A stretch of 64,000 nucleotides of DNA from Glandiceps talaboti (taxonomy: Eukaryota; Hemichordata; Enteropneusta; Spengelidae), in the NCBI RefSeq assembly GCF_964340395.1, contig NC_135563.1, forward strand, positions 5,611,922 to 5,675,921. Reading direction: 5' to 3'. Positions within the stretch are counted from its first letter, which is position 1. The number at the start of each line of letters is the position of its first letter. Of this stretch, positions 2,918 to 63,340 are shown piece by piece. The notes beneath the pieces are model-generated. The model had not been told where the DNA came from. It searched no databases and was given only the letters and a program-made list of their open reading frames with translations. A program made the position numbers and the translations under genes.

Positions 2918-3075
2918 TGTATGTATGTATGTATGTATGTATGTATGTATGTATGTATGCATGTATGTATGTATGTATGTATGTATGTATGTATGAATGC
3001 ATGTATGTATGTATGTATGTATGTATGTATGTATGTATGTATGTATGCATGCATGCATGCATGCATGCATGCATG
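2918..3075. repeat. (ATGT)n microsatellite with GCAT variants
   Basis: About 158 bp of ATGT tetramers pass into ATGC tetramers near the 3' end (3046-3075) and then a poly(A) run. The repeat is open in several frames on both strands (YVCM / HTYI translations), so the ORFs that cover it are artefacts. Confidence 0.97.
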
Positions 3076-3079
3076 TAAA

Positions 3080-4612: not shown

Positions 4613-7410
<2,798 letters not shown>

Positions 7411-9450: not shown

Positions 9451-9639
9451 AATGTTTTTTTTTATTATTTATTTATTAATCTTCATATACATACATCATT
9501 TCAGTGCATTAGCACTGTTCTCCCAATGGAAACTGTTGCAAGATTACGTACACAGAAAAAAACACACAAAAAGGGACAAACCAGGACAAAAAGTTACAGA
9601 AGCACAGTGTACTTTAAAAGATATTCACTTACATTACCA

Positions 9640-10223
9640 GACTACATTCTTAAGATGTCTTTTAAATATCAATGAGTTCGGAGCTGATCTTATGGATATG
9701 GGGTAGATTGTTCCATAGAACAGCACCACTATAGTGAAATGCCCGTTTCCCATATTCAGTTTTAACTGTAGGGATGTATATGTTACCTTGACTGGCCTGT
9801 CTTGTGTTATAAAGATGAATTGGTTGGAAATATTGAACATTTCAGAAAGGTAACTAGATGCATTACCTGTTACTGATTTGTAGACGAGTGTTGCCAGTTG
9901 GCACTTACATCTAATTTGAGGGCTGACCCAACCCAAGTTTTCATATACCCAATCCGTACCAGTATCACGGGGAACTTCTAGGAGCAGTCGACCAGCTCGT
10001 TTATGGAGGAGTTCAAGTGTCTTCAAATACTTTTGATTCGTATTACACCATACATTCGCAGCATAATCGAAATGGGGAAGGACTAAGGTATTGAACATCA
10101 TCTTCCTAAGTCTCAACGGCAGAAAGTGTCTGATTCTCGCCAGTAGACCAAGTTTTAGAGAGATTTTAGCAGAAATTTAGGAAATATGTGTTGAAAATTT
10201 CAATTTTGAATCCAACCAAACCC
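9640..10223 (-). pseudogene. LINE reverse transcriptase C-terminal region, broken
   Basis: The minus-strand translation starts at GVWLDSKL (10200-10223), meets one in-frame stop (an AAA-to-TAA-type change in the HIS*ISAK block), then continues as ARIRHFLPLRLRKM. It goes on to NTLVLPHFDYAANVW, the typical region C-terminal to the RT thumb in non-LTR elements, and LLHKRAGRLLL. The upstream coding part, with TVEQVFDFKYLGVW, is at 15085-15190. The RT catalytic core is not present on either side. It is a dead fragment. Confidence 0.82.
10215..10223. repeat. Target-site duplication, left copy (ACCAAACCC)
   Basis: Nine bases immediately outside the left inverted repeat recur exactly at 15076-15084 outside the right one. 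The sequence belongs to the host LINE (Gly-Val-Trp codons on the minus strand), as expected for duplication of target DNA. Confidence 0.9.
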
Positions 10224-10389
10224 CAATCTGATTAAAATCTGATGTTAGATAGGCTGGTTTTCCTGTATTTACCTTTATTCCATCGTTATTGCGTCTTTTA
10301 CGTTAGTTTTTTATTTTCCTGGACGAACGCCTTTCCAACATCTGACACAGTATACTTGGATTTCACGTGTAAGTCTCGCCTTGCGAGCG
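10224..10389 (+). repeat. Left terminal inverted repeat (166 bp)
   Basis: Exact reverse complement of 14910-15075 over its full length; the same 50-residue open translation appears on opposite strands at the two ends. Beyond the repeat both ends keep a related CCAATCAGA block (10392-10400 and, inverted, near 14892), possibly a CCAAT promoter element used by each internal gene. Confidence 0.97.
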
Positions 10390-10552
10390 AGCCAATCAGA
10401 GTGTTCGTTTCAATAATCGCCTGAGGTCAAATTGGAGGCATCGGAAACGCACAAACAAACAGCTTCCGTTGTAAACAACCCAGCGATCGTGCATAGCGGA
10501 GCCCAGATGCATATAACGACTAACGTGAACAGGAGATAAATACCAAGTAGTG
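10390..10552 (+). other. Putative non-coding leader exon of the plus-strand transposon gene
   Basis: A CCAAT-containing stretch follows the left repeat and ends at a consensus donor, GTAAGT at 10553-10558. It contains only short open frames. It could be a 5' UTR exon that splices to the acceptor at 11430. Predicted from splice consensus only. Confidence 0.35.
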
Positions 10553-11430
10553 GTAAGTAAGCTGCTTTCCATTTACCAATTTCTTTTTGAATAACTGTTT
10601 CCCGTATTTGTCATAGAGAGTTTTGAGGCATGGGCCAGACAGCGCGCCTAATGAACTGCAGACCGGCCGTGTCTCCGTTCCTTGCCGCATCACGGCCCGG
10701 GGTATCACGGTCTCATGCTTAAAATGAACGTCACGGCAAACGGAGACGTAGCCTGCATCGACTAGTCGGTGCGCTGTGTCTTTAGCCAAGATTTGTTACG
10801 TTTCACTCATCTATTTCCAGATTATATTTGGGCCAATACTAAGTTATTGACAAGCTACACACCCTATGCCAGTTGAAATTTGCATGTTTTTTTTATGACA
10901 TTGAAAGATTACAAAATCGCTTCTATATTGATATGACATATTTTGTGAATATGTCAAAAGAACCACCGTGAATTTACGCTATTGTTATGTCGTAAATGAA
11001 GACCAAATCGCTTAGGAAACAAAGATATTTTAACAAGATAAGAAATCGACCTCCATTACTGATAGGTTTTGTACACATCAACAGTGATTACAAATGCTAG
11101 CGAAAACGGTAATTAATAATGGTTAGTTAATGTGGTGCCATAAAACATTGACAAGTTGATCACATTACAGTGATTATGATAATGTGTTACCATATTGAAT
11201 GATTATCAGTTCATCTTCAATTTCCAAACTATATCGACTTGTTGCAACAAGTGAGGAAATGTTTTGGCAACAGGGAACTATTATTGTGGGAACAAAATAA
11301 TACTACACACAACGCTACTGTTACTCAGTATTTACTGTACCATATTTGAAGTATAAATAGTATTATTAGTACTGGTAAACTGTACACTACCTTATCATTG
11401 TATTTGAAATAATTTCATTTCTTTTGACAG

Positions 11431-11714
11431 AAAACCTGCGTCTTACTGTATTATATAGAATGTTTTCAACTCCACCCAAGAAAGCCCCAGACCCACTGAA
11501 TACATGTGTGGTATGTGGGTTTGACTTTGAAGATTACTTTGTCAACAAACAAGGAAAAGAAGTGAAGGGTAATCGAAGGAAAAAGAAATTAAAGGATGAT
11601 GAGTTGATGACTTTGTCAACATGTGTGGCTGCAAGCCACTATAACGTACATGTGCATGATTTATTTTATCATCTATTTTGTGACCATACATTTTCCTGTC
11701 CTGTTTTATTGTAA
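11431..11714 (+). pseudogene. Plus-strand transposon exon, CxxC-containing fragment
   Basis: An acceptor (tttcttttgacag, ending 11430) opens an exon whose first good ATG is at 11460. The predicted peptide begins MFSTPPKKAPDPLNTCVVCG, has a CxxC pair, then a Lys/Arg-rich block (KGNRRKKKLKDDE) and a few more Cys/His residues, and stops at 11714. It looks like the N-terminus of a DNA-binding protein (zinc-finger-like pair plus basic stretch), and it could be the remnant of the element's transposase gene with the rest deleted. I do not recognise the family. An internal donor may end the coding part earlier. It converges on the helicase gene about 360 bp away. Confidence 0.4.
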
Positions 11715-13626
11715 AAAAAATTAAAGTTGCTGTTAACTAAAGAAGGTAGTGGAGATGTCATAATTGGTTAATTCCATAAAAAAATATACACAAGGCCGAG
11801 GTATCTGTTTGAAAATTTATTGTGTATTTTTAAAAAAAATGGATGGAACATGGTACACAAAGTAAATTGTTTGCATCTTTTGTAAAAGAAATAAAATCGG
11901 TCAAAAATACATGTTCTGTCTTATAAATATGTTGGATTCAAGGAAAAGTTGGTATGGTGGGTCAAGCATGTACAATGTAATTGGATTCAGTAGTACATGT
12001 ACTATAGTCTTCTAGGTGAACAGATACTGAGGAAATCATAAATGAGACAGGTACAGGTGTGACAGCAGGAATTAATCCTCACAGCTAATACTACAGCTTT
12101 CCAAGGAATCAACAACAGCATCTGACTCCAGACTACCTGACTCACTTGTGGCATCATCACTATCAGTTTCAGCAGCATAATGAATAAGATGGTTCTCAAT
12201 ATAATTTGACGTTGACAGACACTTACCACATTTACAATTGTTTTGGCACACATCACAACAATCGTGTTGTCCAGACTTACTTTTTATATTTTCAATATCT
12301 TTGTCTGAAGCAAAATTTTCAAATAATTTGAGTCTTCTGCATACAGAATCATTGACTATATACTTTTTTCAATTCTGGGCAACAATCACGCAACATTCTC
12401 CCATGATAGAGTAGAACAGAATGTGAAGATTTATTGTCTCTCCCAACCCTGCCAGCCTCTTATATGTAGCTTTTAATATCCAATGAAGGTCCATAGTGTA
12501 TGACATGATGCATGTCCTTCATGTCAACACCCATCCCGAGGACTGTTGTGCAGAAAATTACACGAAACACTGATTCGGAATCTTTGGTTATTTCTGACAA
12601 ATGTGAACTTGTGTATCCGTCTCACTATGATACATTCCAATGAACTGATCTGATTGTGGGTATTCCTCCCTAAAATAATGATATAATTTGGCTGTTGCAT
12701 CAATTGAGGAATAATAAATGACAGTTCGTGGAAATACAGCACCATCTTCTCGCAGTTTATCTACCATCCAAAAGAAAACCGAGGGTATGTCACTTGGAAT
12801 TTTGATAACAGCATATCTAACTCTCCTTGATCTTGTATTGTAAGCGTTTAGAAGCAGTGGCAGTAAGTGCTAGTACTCGGACATCGGGGAAAAATGAACG
12901 TAGTTCCCCAACATGTGAGAAGTATTCACGGAATGCTCCTTCTTGAACTCTTTGGCTGTTTTTTTTTTACCGACATCTGCTTTTTCACCCCTGAAAAATG
13001 ATAATAAATTTAATAAAATACAATAATCGATGTGGATAAAGGTTAAAAAAATGACATCTGCATAATAGTGCTAGTTTTTCAGTCAGTAAATATAAAAAAT
13101 TGTAACATGTTATTTTTTATTTATTTCATTTAGAAAACCTACAACAATCATGAAATACTTTGACTTTCAACTTTTTAAACTTCCTTTAAATTAATTACTT
13201 TTAAAGCATCCTAAACTGTGTAGCATTTCTGTTCAACAACATGTAATGTGGGTAGTTGGTTCGTTACATGCTAAAGTTTTCTATGGGCGGTGGATCATCT
13301 CTTCCAAATTTCAACTCATCCCACTCAACTTGCCCAAACTCTCTGCAATATAATTGTGCATATTATGTGACATCGTCGATGGTAATACATTTTGGAAGGT
13401 CAAAAATCATGCAAAACCACCACCTTTTGCTACAATATGCTGGCACATTTGAACATTGACTAGCCACTTATGTAAAATCGTTTAAATTTCAGTCTATGCA
13501 CTTAATTCATTTAGACTTTTACAAGTGATGTTGGGGCGAGTTAATAATAGGACAAGATGAAATAAGAGGAGTTGAAATTGGGGTAAGATGAATCGCAATC
13601 TATTTTATGTCTTGAGCAACACTTAC

Positions 13627-13818
13627 CATTTTGGAATGGTATGGACTTCATCAACTACCAACAACACAATTTTGTCACTTTTTTTTAATTGTTTCAATTT
13701 TATTTTGCTGTTTGAGGTAATCCTCTGGTTAGCCATAGAGGTACGTTGGTAACACGTTGCCATCAACAAACTCACTGGCTAGTCCTGCAGACTGTCCCCT
13801 TTCCGTCAACATTGATAT
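13627..13818 (-). other. Helicase pseudogene exon 3 (DEVH box)
   Basis: Opens ISMLTERGQSAGLASEF in frame with exon 2, matching the RecQ block after MKDQ. A TAA interrupts it at 13729-13731. A frameshift in the A-run at about 13679-13687 must be bridged to read IVLLVVDEVHTIPKW. The exon ends at GTAAGT (13626-13621), splitting the Trp codon. Confidence 0.8.
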
Positions 13819-13967
13819 CTAAAAAAAATCAACATTCAGTGACTTTAAAATTGACATAGTGTACAGTGTGTCTTAATCAAGCACCAGAAGTTGAACCGGT
13901 AACAGTCCTATTACAAATAGGTCAAGAAAATAATACTAATTAATTGTCTTCGAGAGAGAAAGCTTAC

Positions 13968-14174
13968 CTGGTCCTTCATAAGGTATACAAGAGGTGAAAC
14001 CACCAATACAGTTCCCAGACTTGCCAACATATGTGGGTACATATGGTAAATCAAAGATTTTCCATATCCTGTTGGAAGGATTGTGAGGACATCATTCCCT
14101 GAAAGGAGGAATTGTAATGCCTCCTTTTGTGAAGACTTCATATCCTCCACTGCTACTCCAAATTGTTGAGAAAC
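13968..14174 (-). other. Helicase pseudogene exon 2 (motifs 0, I, Ia)
   Basis: 207 bp, phase 0 at both ends, acceptor CAG and donor GTAAGC. Contains Walker A with an intact GKS and the MKDQ block typical of RecQ. This exon has no lesion. Confidence 0.88.
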
Positions 14175-14741
14175 CTGTGAAGAATGGAAATGAGACAGTA
14201 AGACACAGTATACATAAGGTAGAGCACAGTCTTGCTAACGTGGCTAAAGTAATACCTGAACTATGACAGATGGAATCAGATAATCGTTTGGGGTTTTAAA
14301 AAAAAGAAAAAAGTAGTATTTCATATTTGGTGACACGATCACTAAAGGTGATCGCAATATTTTTTATTTGCTTTTAAATGTTGTGTCTATTTTGGCATTC
14401 CTTTATGAACGTCATTTTCGGCCAGATACATACTAGGCTTTATATGCATAAATCAAATTTAATAACAGAATTCTTTTAACATAAGTTGACAATTGATAGT
14501 TTCAACAATCATGCGTAAGAATTAAATATGTCAAGTTGACCATGGAAGTAATGATTTGACCGAACACTAGCTAGGTAGCGGTAGTTGGTTTGTTATTGTG
14601 GAAGTTACTTGTGTTTGCCTTCGTACTACTACTAGTACAAGATTTTACATGCCGTTAACTTACAATTCTCAATAGCTTCTAACTTGTAGATATTCGATAC
14701 AAGAGGAATTAATAATGAATGAAAAATGACCATTAACTTAC

Positions 14742-14822
14742 GTCAATTATACACTCCGACTCTTCGTTTGTTTGCTGAGAAACGTTAACATCGTCTGCGT
14801 CCGACGCTGTCGCCATTTTCAT
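14742..14822 (-). other. Helicase pseudogene exon 1
   Basis: 27 codons, ending at donor GTAAGT (14741-14736). The short acidic N-terminus shows no domain. The start lies about 90 bp inside the right inverted repeat, so the promoter must overlap the repeat or the CCAAT-bearing gap beside it. Confidence 0.75.
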
Positions 14823-15075
14823 AATGTGATGAACGTGCGCATGCGTACAATGTCGGCAGCCTCGCTCAAAATTGCCTAAGAGAGAACATTTCTGATTGGG
14901 TGAGCTCTGCGCTCGCAAGGCGAGACTTACACGTGAAATCCAAGTATACTGTGTCAGATGTTGGAAAGGCGTTCGTCCAGGAAAATAAAAAACTAACGTA
15001 AAAGACGCAATAACGATGGAATAAAGGTAAATACAGGAAAACCAGCCTATCTAACATCAGATTTTAATCAGATTG

Positions 15076-15084
15076 ACCAAACCC
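15076..15084. repeat. Target-site duplication, right copy (ACCAAACCC)
   Basis: Exact match to 10215-10223, immediately outside the right inverted repeat. Confidence 0.9.
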
Positions 15085-15190
15085 CTAAGTATTTGAAATC
15101 AAATACTTGCTCTACTGTATTCGAATTTGCAAAACTGAATTTAGTTTTACTCTTTGAGAAGTACCGTTATGTTAACTTCTGTAGCTCATA
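15076..15190 (-). mobile_element. LINE segment displaced by the transposon insertion
   Basis: The minus-strand reading gives SKTKFSFANSNTVEQVFDFK then YLGVW, which joins the LDSKL segment at 10200-10223 across the transposon. Upstream (plus-strand right) of about 15190 the LINE similarity fades, giving the 5'-truncation point. Confidence 0.75.
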
Positions 15191-21063: not shown

Positions 21064-21900
21064 GTTCAATATCTCCCTCAAATGAAACACCGTTCACCAC
21101 ACGTTTTACGTTACATTGTATTAAAGCAGTGATCAGCACTATGTGCATAATTGAGGACATTTATTATGATAAAGTATGTCATTTATAATGAACTTGGCGG
21201 ATACCTTGATAAGGTCATGACATGTGAGTCGCAAAGTGTAACTTGCACATTATGGACTAATTTGCATATTTTCCAATTACAGGGGGTTTCATCAATCTCC
21301 GTGGACACATATACTTCCTATTATAAATAGGATAGTTTGGTTTTCAGGCTCTATGACAAATTCATTTTTTGGAGGACTATTTATTGCGAAATCAGCTAGC
21401 CTAATTTTCATATCTTATAATTTGTTTGCTTCTATTTTAATACATACAGTTACTATCAGATTAAAAGATATTGCTTAATGTACAAATTGTTTACACAGTT
21501 AAGCTTTGCAATATAGTTTTAAAATATTTACAAGTTAAGGTTTAATCTCATAAGTAACTAATGTTTTCCAATAACTGGGCAAAAGCTGTCAATGTATTAG
21601 TGGTAATCCCACATAGCTCAGTACTTATATTGATTGATTATGCCATGGTGCACATATCAATTGCATTTGGTTGGTGTGCCATGGATATCAATGGCATTTA
21701 TATGTATCTCACAATGCTGTTGCTATCATGAGAGAGTTCTGACACGAGTGGGCGCAATATGCATGCAATGCAATGAACTGGTCATTTTCTGTACAACTAT
21801 ATATGCGCACATGAACAGGAGCAAAGAGTCAGAATAGTTCATGTTATTGACCTTACGGGAGGCATTCAGTTCACATACTGTTCGGTCACGTATGTGACGT
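21064..21900. other. Intergenic, no recognised gene
   Basis: ORFs at 20937-21188 and 21634-21837 have no recognised motif. No repeat seen. Confidence 0.4.
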
Positions 21901-22384
21901 GATGCCATGTCATGTCATGTCATGTCATATTATGTTATATCATTTAATTTGTGTGATGTGATGTGATGTGATGTGATATGACGTAGTGCTGCGACACGAT
22001 GCTATATGATATGATATGATATGATGCGATGAGATGCGATGCGATGCTATGTGAAGTGAAGTGGCGTGATGTGATGTGATGTGATGTGATCTGACGTGAT
22101 GTGATGTGACATGATGTGATGTGATGTGGGGTGAGGTGGTTTGATGTCATGTGATGTGCTGTGAGGTGGTGCGATCTGACGTGCTGTGATGTGATGTGAT
22201 GTGGGGTGAGGTGAGGTGCTGTGATGTGATGTGATGTGATGTGATGTGATGTGACGTGATTGTTGTGTGATCTGATGTGATGTGATCTGATGTGAGGCGA
22301 GGGGTTTGATGTGATGTGTTATCATGTTATGTCATGTGATGTCATGCCATGCCATGCGATGTGATGTGATGTCATGTCATGTCA
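21901..22384. repeat. Pentameric GTGAT/CATGT satellite, ~480 bp
   Basis: The block is built of degenerate five-base units: TCATG at both edges, TGATA and GTGAT in the middle, and GTGAG/GTGCT variants. The edges (21906-21930 and 22320-22382) share the 'catgtcatgt' variant, so sub-families are arranged in blocks. The HITSH-type minus-strand ORFs are by-products. Confidence 0.93.
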
Positions 22385-24480: not shown

Positions 24481-28750
<4,270 letters not shown>

Positions 28751-61981: not shown

Positions 61982-62901
61982 GTAAGTTTCTGTTGCAATA
62001 GAGTTGTACCCTCCCACAAATCTACACACTAGAATAGCGGGATTTGGGTAGTGATAGTACATGTACATGTACAGAAACCGTCCGCGCATAAGCAGAAGAA
62101 GTCGGTCAAATTTGTAAGCCTATGGTATGGGTACTACCATTTGATTACGGGGTGGGCGGGGCTGTCACCGATAATTCCATGGACCCAACTATAATTTTTT
62201 TTGTATCCACCATGACACCATGGTGTTTTCGAGAGCACATAGACAGCATTTTAAATATATATATGATTTTATCATTTGAATTTCACTATTGTCGTCGCAT
62301 CATGTCGCGTCGTGTTGGATATGTTGGAAATGAGACCGGAAAGGCATTTTTCTTCTTTGTCATTATAATAATTCAAATTTTCATTCCTTAAATGACAAAA
62401 TAAATTTTTGCACATTTTGACCTCTGATGATAAACTTCCTCTTGGAAAATTTCTTGGTGATGTGCAGTCCTCCAGCAGTTGGCTAAATGACTATTGTATT
62501 CACTATATTTCTGTATGTTATTTTTGTATGCTTTACCATGCTTGCTATGGTATGTTGTTATGCAATAAAGACGGATTAATTGATTGATATTACAGACAAC
62601 CCTAGTCCAGTCAAAGGGACACATATTATTGCTTAGATTGCTGTTTTCCTAAGAAAACATCACACGAATCATGCTACTACAAATCTATCAGTTTATCCCT
62701 CTATACAATAAGATAACTAGTTATCCTATTGTGTATAACACAAATTGTTCTTTCTGTGGAGGTAGGGGAAATGTATTCAAGTCAAAATGTTGTCAATTCT
62801 AGACTCTAGACAAGAAAAAAAAAACAATCTAAGAAATACTACACTATGAGTTCAATGTCTGTCAATCAACGTTTTGTTTTATTCCTTCGATAGTTGTACA
62901 T

Positions 62902-62970
<69 letters not shown>

Positions 62971-63340
62971 TACATACATACATACATACATACATACATA
63001 CATACATACATACATACATACATACATACATACATACATACATACATACATACATACACATGCCTCCTTTATATCAATGGATGCATTTTACAAATTTACC
63101 CCGTCGAAGTAACTATCAGGAAAAAGCATTGCGACAAAAGTATACTGCCGTAAAATAGAAAGATGACGTACGTATGTCCTTGGTATCACCATGGAAGTAT
63201 AACTTCCATGGTATCACTCTGCAGGTGCATGTAAATCAATACAAGTAGGTATGTTATTTATATGACGTAATGCATTGTTGCCCACTTTTGTCTTGACTAC
63301 ATCATGACTATTGATTGATTTGTGTTACTAGTATTCCTCC
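61982..63340. other. Non-coding interval with (CA)n and (CATA)n
   Basis: (CATA)n/(CA)n compound microsatellite at 62897-63060. An 'aataaagacggattaattgattgat' block near 62565 resembles a retroelement 3' end but is too short to call. A small palindrome, ACCATGGAAGT-ATA-ACTTCCATGGT, lies at about 63190-63214. Confidence 0.5.
62897..63060. repeat. (CATA)n-(CA)n-(CATA)n microsatellite
   Basis: About 160 bp of CATA tetramers with a CA core at 62920-62965. Confidence 0.96.

Follow-up and report, generated by a model that had tools for sequence, protein, structure and literature searches.

A RecQ helicase pseudogene inside a transposon insertion

We analysed a stretch of 64,000 nucleotides (hereafter the window) from the genome of the hemichordate Glandiceps talaboti (contig NC_135563.1, positions 5,611,922 to 5,675,921 of the forward strand). 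Between positions 10224 and 15075 of the window lies a DNA element that is bounded by long terminal inverted repeats (TIRs), is flanked by a target site duplication (TSD), and contains the remnants of a RecQ-type helicase gene on the minus strand and a short open reading frame (ORF1) on the plus strand. The features of the insertion, in window positions, are as follows.

10215-10223: left copy of the TSD, ACCAAACCC, identified by reading the flanks and by the empty site, which regains a LINE-like frame
10224-10389, plus strand: left TIR, 166 bp, starting CAATCTGATTAAAATCTGATGT; many more copies in the genome
11460-11714, plus strand: ORF1, 84 amino acids (MFSTPPKK...TCVVCGFDF...FVNKQGKEVKG), candidate shortened first coding exon of a putative transposase gene that would start close to the left TIR
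12069-12990, minus strand: helicase pseudo-exon 4 (LALTATA, GMGVD, EAGRVGRD, RecQ zinc motif), disrupted by frameshifts, a stop and the loss of 53 bp
13627-13818, minus strand: helicase pseudo-exon 3 (DEVH), with a broken frame; its DEVH end is absent from copies L009 and L012
13968-14174, minus strand: helicase exon 2 (Walker A, TGYGKS), PF00270 at E 2e-8, GT-AG boundaries
14742-14822, minus strand: helicase exon 1 (MKMATASDADD...), ATG at 14822
14910-15075, minus strand: right TIR, 166 bp, 100% complementary to the left TIR
15076-15084: right copy of the TSD, ACCAAACCC, identified by reading the flanks

A preliminary description of this DNA had reported identical 166-bp inverted repeats and a 9-bp target duplication, and both were recovered: the repeats at 10224-10389 and 14910-15075 are complementary at 100% of their 166 nt, and the duplication ACCAAACCC is exact at 10215-10223 and 15076-15084. 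The first bases of the element are CA. When the element was excised in silico together with one TSD copy, a minus-strand peptide resembling the reverse transcriptase of a long interspersed nuclear element (LINE), ...FDFKYLGVWLDSKLKFSTHIS, was restored across the junction; its LINE identity was judged by eye. Because the empty site restores this peptide and the TIRs and the TSD are perfect, the element is a genuine insertion, well beyond chance. The LINE-like reverse transcriptase remnant that the transposon interrupts extends, by eye, over 9637-10200 and 15085-15170 on the minus strand.

The helicase was described as a spliced internal gene, and all of the named motifs were indeed found in minus-strand exons with GT-AG boundaries, namely Walker A (TGYGKS), DEVH, LALTATA, GMGVD, EAGRVGRD and the zinc motif CCDVCQNNCKCGKC. 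The ATG at 14822 lies 87 bp from the right TIR, in agreement with the earlier figure of about 90 bp. Two of the nine ORF stretches scanned against Pfam gave matches, to PF00270 (E 2e-8) and PF00271 (E 6e-7). However, the gene is not intact: the motifs are spread over more than one reading frame, and in the DEVH exon the frame continuous with exon 2 is interrupted by a stop. In addition, the frame breaks within a poly-A run, 53 bp are deleted after LALTATA and a further 7 bp are lost; a TAA stands in frame immediately ahead of EAGRVGRD, and a 1-bp insertion precedes the zinc motif.

Recent copies with a disabled helicase, and diverged relatives

We searched the genome (590 Mb in 47 contigs) with the TIR and obtained at least 71 matches, 40 of 246 candidates having been scored. 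Among the matches listed were six long copies bounded by TIRs (the window copy and those on C14, C10, C19, C4 and C7), which are 4707-5302 bp in length and differ pairwise by substitutions at 0.06-0.67%. Their TSDs are all different and measure 9 bp in five copies and 10 bp in one. In the C7 copy (L013), we also observed partial extra repeats (116 bp; 577-853 and 5391-5667) outside both inner repeats, with the TSD at the outer ends. Seven short copies (L014-L020), hand-picked from the TIR match list, consist of TIR pieces, are mostly near-palindromic, and have TSDs of 9 bp in five cases and 10 bp in two. The TSDs of the long copies, the seven short copies and L058/L059 were read from the flanks by eye; a script-based reading missed the short-copy duplications, its fuzzy matching having taken three extra bases. 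Overall, 15 insertions had both ends read, and the TSD was 9 bp in 11 of them and 10 bp in 3, with no match in the single miss, L057. In this tally, L058 and L059, which share flanks, count as one insertion, and L053, L056 and L060, with one end visible only, were left out. The exact 22-base end CAATCTGATTAAAATCYGATGT gave 1618 forward and 1618 reverse matches, compared with 0 and 0 for a control pattern read backwards; as the count is equal on both strands, we take it solely to mean very many. The family represented by the window copy (the window-type family) has thus multiplied recently, and the element is young but disabled.

The state of the helicase was compared across the six long copies, using the C-terminal exon (exon C) of the relative L051 as a reference that is itself imperfect, with a frame break of its own near the C terminus. 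The 7-bp deletion, the TAA before EAGRVGRD and an insertion of 1 or 2 bp before the zinc motif are common to all six, while the 53-bp deletion is an additional lesion of the window copy; L009 and L012 lack 233 bp, including the DEVH end of exon 3. The helicase is therefore a pseudogene in each of the six long copies, and because the inactivating changes are common to six sites, it was probably dead before these copies spread. An intact helicase in the window element was rejected because of the shared damage, and the proposal of a working helicase that takes part in transposition is not supported for it. The genome search that had been suggested as a check brought to light the six long copies, very many short ones and diverged relatives of the helicase, whereas a full-length copy with a transposase was not found in the window-type family.

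L051 (C1:30196767) is the closest relative of the window helicase; its exon C is open, as is that of L056. Searched against PDB, L051 and L056 had chains of BLM and RECQ1 as best matches (E 3e-18 to 2e-16). The features of RecQ membership are present, that is, the superfamily 2 (SF2) helicase motifs and the RecQ zinc motif, although the CRR...CCDxC segment of L056 aligned with BLM at only 4.8 bits. Helicases 58-67% identical stand beside ends of the same TIR type elsewhere in the genome. One such case is L058/L059, a single insertion that has been duplicated, with TIRs of 136-138 bp and the TSD ATCAATACT; its exon C is about 84% identical to that of L056 and 65% identical to that of L051, and its helicase is interrupted by one stop and, near the C terminus, by a frame break. 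In addition, the same end sequence adjoins fragments of a helicase in L057 and L060, whose exon C is 58-62% identical to that of L051. L051 has the helicase and no TIRs, and L056 has a single related end nearby in the wrong orientation for bounding its helicase. Between the helicase exons of L051 and L056, the ratio of nonsynonymous to synonymous substitution (dN/dS) was 0.094, with synonymous sites near saturation (proportion of synonymous differences, pS, 0.705); the estimate comes from this pair only, comparisons with L060 being invalid as the aligner drops stop signs. This value suggests that helicases of the L051/L056 type are under purifying selection. Taken with the related helicases that adjoin these ends in diverged elements, the RecQ gene is, as the preliminary description had expected, probably a resident of the element lineage rather than one-off cargo. 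The reading as an element of the cut-and-paste type is likewise supported.

Transposase candidates and classification of the family

ORF1 runs convergent to the helicase. Its product is 98-100% identical in four of the five other long copies, and the ORF is disrupted in the remaining one (L012); a version with 95% identity occurs at C1:30198041. More distant relatives, 40-52% identical over 43-54 amino acids, were found on C19, C11, C12 and C4. Those on C19 and C4 have further exons in common, 52-57% identical to each other; the C11 relative (L053) sits about 0.8 kb inward from a transposon end that has the same end sequence as the window-type family. Both the C19 and the C4 relative belong to multi-exon genes, at L052:2714-5002 (C19, minus strand) and L055:4917-7474 (C4). 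No inverted repeats were recognised in the 9.9 kb fetched for L052 and L055, and these genes are possibly transposase-derived host genes. Another relative of ORF1, a decayed one, has at a distance of 4 kb (L054:2-1021) a long open frame that resembles, by eye, a C2H2 zinc-finger protein. Pfam gave no transposase match above the cut-off for ORF1 or for its C19 and C4 relatives, and no DDE core was recognised in L052 or L055 by eye or by motif. ORF1 may be the remnant of a transposase gene.

We also searched the genome with the Pfam domain PF20231 (DUF6589), which we take to be the Academ transposase domain, with no mention of DUF6589 found in the literature searched. Its 20 genome matches were grouped into 16 loci and compared with a set of 60 RecQ matches, for which the query was one DUF6589-linked helicase. 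In 9 of the 16 loci, a RecQ match lay within 10 kb, at a chance of about 0.002 per locus, and all nine pairs were convergent. The pairs are not fully independent, since C8:27.97 and C9:0.41 (99% identical helicases) and C20 and C26 (identical scores) look like near-copies; on C13, a RecQ match 27.5 kb from DUF6589 was counted as a miss. The convergent genes lie 1-5 kb apart, at (in Mb) C8:27.97, C8:16.39, C9:0.41, C1:35.77, C10:9.17, C8:24.54, C14:11.02, C20:14.91 and C26:5.14. These nine loci, of which the one on C9 (L064) was read as sequence, are apparently two-gene transposons or their relics, and they suggest that the pairing of DUF6589 with a RecQ gene in convergent orientation recurs in this genome. 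Two-gene loci of this kind exist here; the transposase of the window-type family is not thereby shown. L064 resembles the window element in its convergent genes and in a similar C-terminal cysteine cluster, and differs in that its helicase is 33% identical; neither the window-type repeat end nor ends of its own were found in L064. When the L051 helicase was compared with one that is linked to DUF6589 in this genome, the score was 105 bits; the best PDB chain, that of BLM, gave 66 bits.

The preliminary description held that a 9-bp duplication with long repeats does not obviously fit Academ and raised the possibility of a distinct lineage. AcademH is the helicase-encoding lineage of Academ, reportedly going back to Kojima in 2020, and has terminal inverted repeats. 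According to PMC10045372, AcademH generates TSDs of 9 or 10 bp and AcademX TSDs of 3 or 4 bp, a difference that its author ties to the helicase and the nuclease. The argument for a misfit falls because AcademH duplications are 9 or 10 bp, and with it the main argument for a distinct lineage. The window-type family agrees with AcademH in a TSD of 9 or 10 bp in 14 of the 15 insertions with both ends read, and further in the RecQ-type remnant of all six long copies (exon C being open in L051 and L056) and in the TIRs of the window element (166 bp, 100%). It differs in that a transposase core is missing from every window-type copy seen, the 84-aa ORF being all that is left, and in that all six long copies have a helicase pseudogene. 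No nuclease was among the Pfam matches of the nine stretches, all copies being defective. If the AcademH assignment holds, AcademX belongs to the same superfamily as the window element; neither its 3- or 4-bp TSDs, as given in that source, nor its nuclease was seen in the window-type family. We therefore regard the window element, with a probability of roughly 0.75, as a non-autonomous copy derived from an AcademH-type DNA transposon with two genes. Membership of the family in AcademH, judged by TSD length, helicase and TIRs, is probable, and the family looks like a new one within an already described class of helicase-carrying transposons.

Several observations weigh against this assignment. 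The transposase core was not found for the window-type family, and DUF6589 had no match within 10 kb of any of the 12 window-type helicase loci. For one of the exons shared by the C19 and C4 relatives of ORF1, a nearly end-to-end alignment to the N-terminal region encoded by a DUF6589 gene had 22% identity (P 0.009) and an hhalign probability of 4.5%; this link comes from one profile comparison and is weak. The L064 helicase scores equally high, at 105 bits, against E. coli RecQ. L057 has two ends without a matching duplication, and of the pair used for the selection estimate, L051 and L056, neither is shown to be bounded by TIRs, so that the estimate is no proof of selection inside bounded elements. 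In addition, of the 31 genome matches to the MULE domain PF10551, the one within 10 kb of a RecQ match lies 3.9 kb from L051 (C1:30196767), on the same strand.

That last match bears on the alternative that the element is a Mutator-like element (MULE) whose lineage took up a RecQ gene long ago, in the manner of Pack-MULEs, so that the copies would be mobilised by a MULE transposase and carry the helicase as cargo. MULEs typically have repeats of more than 100 bp and 9-bp TSDs, which the window element resembles and which also counts against AcademH. For IS256 and MuDR, PMC10045372 lists TSDs between 4 and 10 bp. However, the single MULE match near RecQ is outside the common stretch, and 1 of 31 compares with 9 of 16 for DUF6589. 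By coordinates, none of the 31 PF10551 matches falls inside a long copy and none was in the nine scanned stretches, which, the copies being defective, leaves room for a MULE parent. The window-type helicase is apparently resident, and the purifying selection suggested for such helicases between two lineages is unlike that expected of cargo. We consider a MULE origin unlikely.

It is quite unlikely that the family forms a separate superfamily, neither AcademH nor MULE, whose own transposase acts with a RecQ helicase that shapes the 9-10-bp staggered insertion. The missing core and the lack of a Pfam transposase match above the cut-off in ORF1 and its C19 and C4 relatives would agree with such a lineage, yet the TSD length and the helicase fit AcademH, and deletion of the core in all copies seen could explain its absence. 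If true, RecQ would have been recruited independently here, with duplications of equal length.

A single capture event, in which a non-autonomous element took up a RecQ gene of the host, would account for the very many short copies that share the ends and lack the helicase, and for the TIR-less helicase of L051, both of which were seen; palindromic short copies are, however, a common by-product of such transposons, and capture is very improbable and was rejected because the same ends adjoin helicases 58-67% identical in several other elements. Kolobok was likewise rejected and has next to no chance: according to PMC9587614, KolobokH carries RecQ, and Kolobok-1_CCri has it on the complementary strand, but Kolobok has TTAA-specific 4-bp TSDs with 5'-RR and YY-3' ends, compared with TSDs of 9-10 bp, none of them TTAA, and a CA start here.

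Elsewhere in the window, a second LINE-like reverse transcriptase remnant, recognised by eye, lies at 918-1868 on the plus strand and shows a FADD motif, and long simple-repeat arrays occupy 2918-3077, 4616-4723, 7023-7329, 21892-22382, 28533-28686 and 62897-63058.

Proposed mobilisation and its meaning

The borders, the TSDs, the recent multiplication, the common helicase damage and the existence of diverged relatives that combine these ends with a RecQ gene are direct observations, from which the following scenario starts. Before it decayed, the ancestral element probably carried two converging genes, one for a transposase directed inward from the left TIR and one for a RecQ helicase directed inward from the right TIR. 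In the window copy, the transposase would have been cut down to what is possibly its first coding exon, and the helicase to a pseudogene. Because defective copies spread recently, they were most likely moved in trans by an AcademH-type transposase that was made elsewhere and recognised the common ends. By analogy with the chemistry of known DDD/E transposons, this transposase would bind the TIRs, excise the element and insert it at a target staggered by 9 or 10 bp. In intact relatives, RecQ would presumably unwind DNA at excision, or at the staggered target or the donor gap during insertion or repair.

Since copies with a dead helicase spread, a moving copy need not encode the helicase itself; for window-type copies, the helicase would be suppliable in trans or dispensable for mobility. 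The genome of G. talaboti would be another eukaryotic genome in which an AcademH-like family has multiplied very recently, after the death of its helicase. The arrangement of DUF6589 with a convergent RecQ gene may also aid the annotation of transposons that are now filed as RecQ genes or as genes of unknown function.

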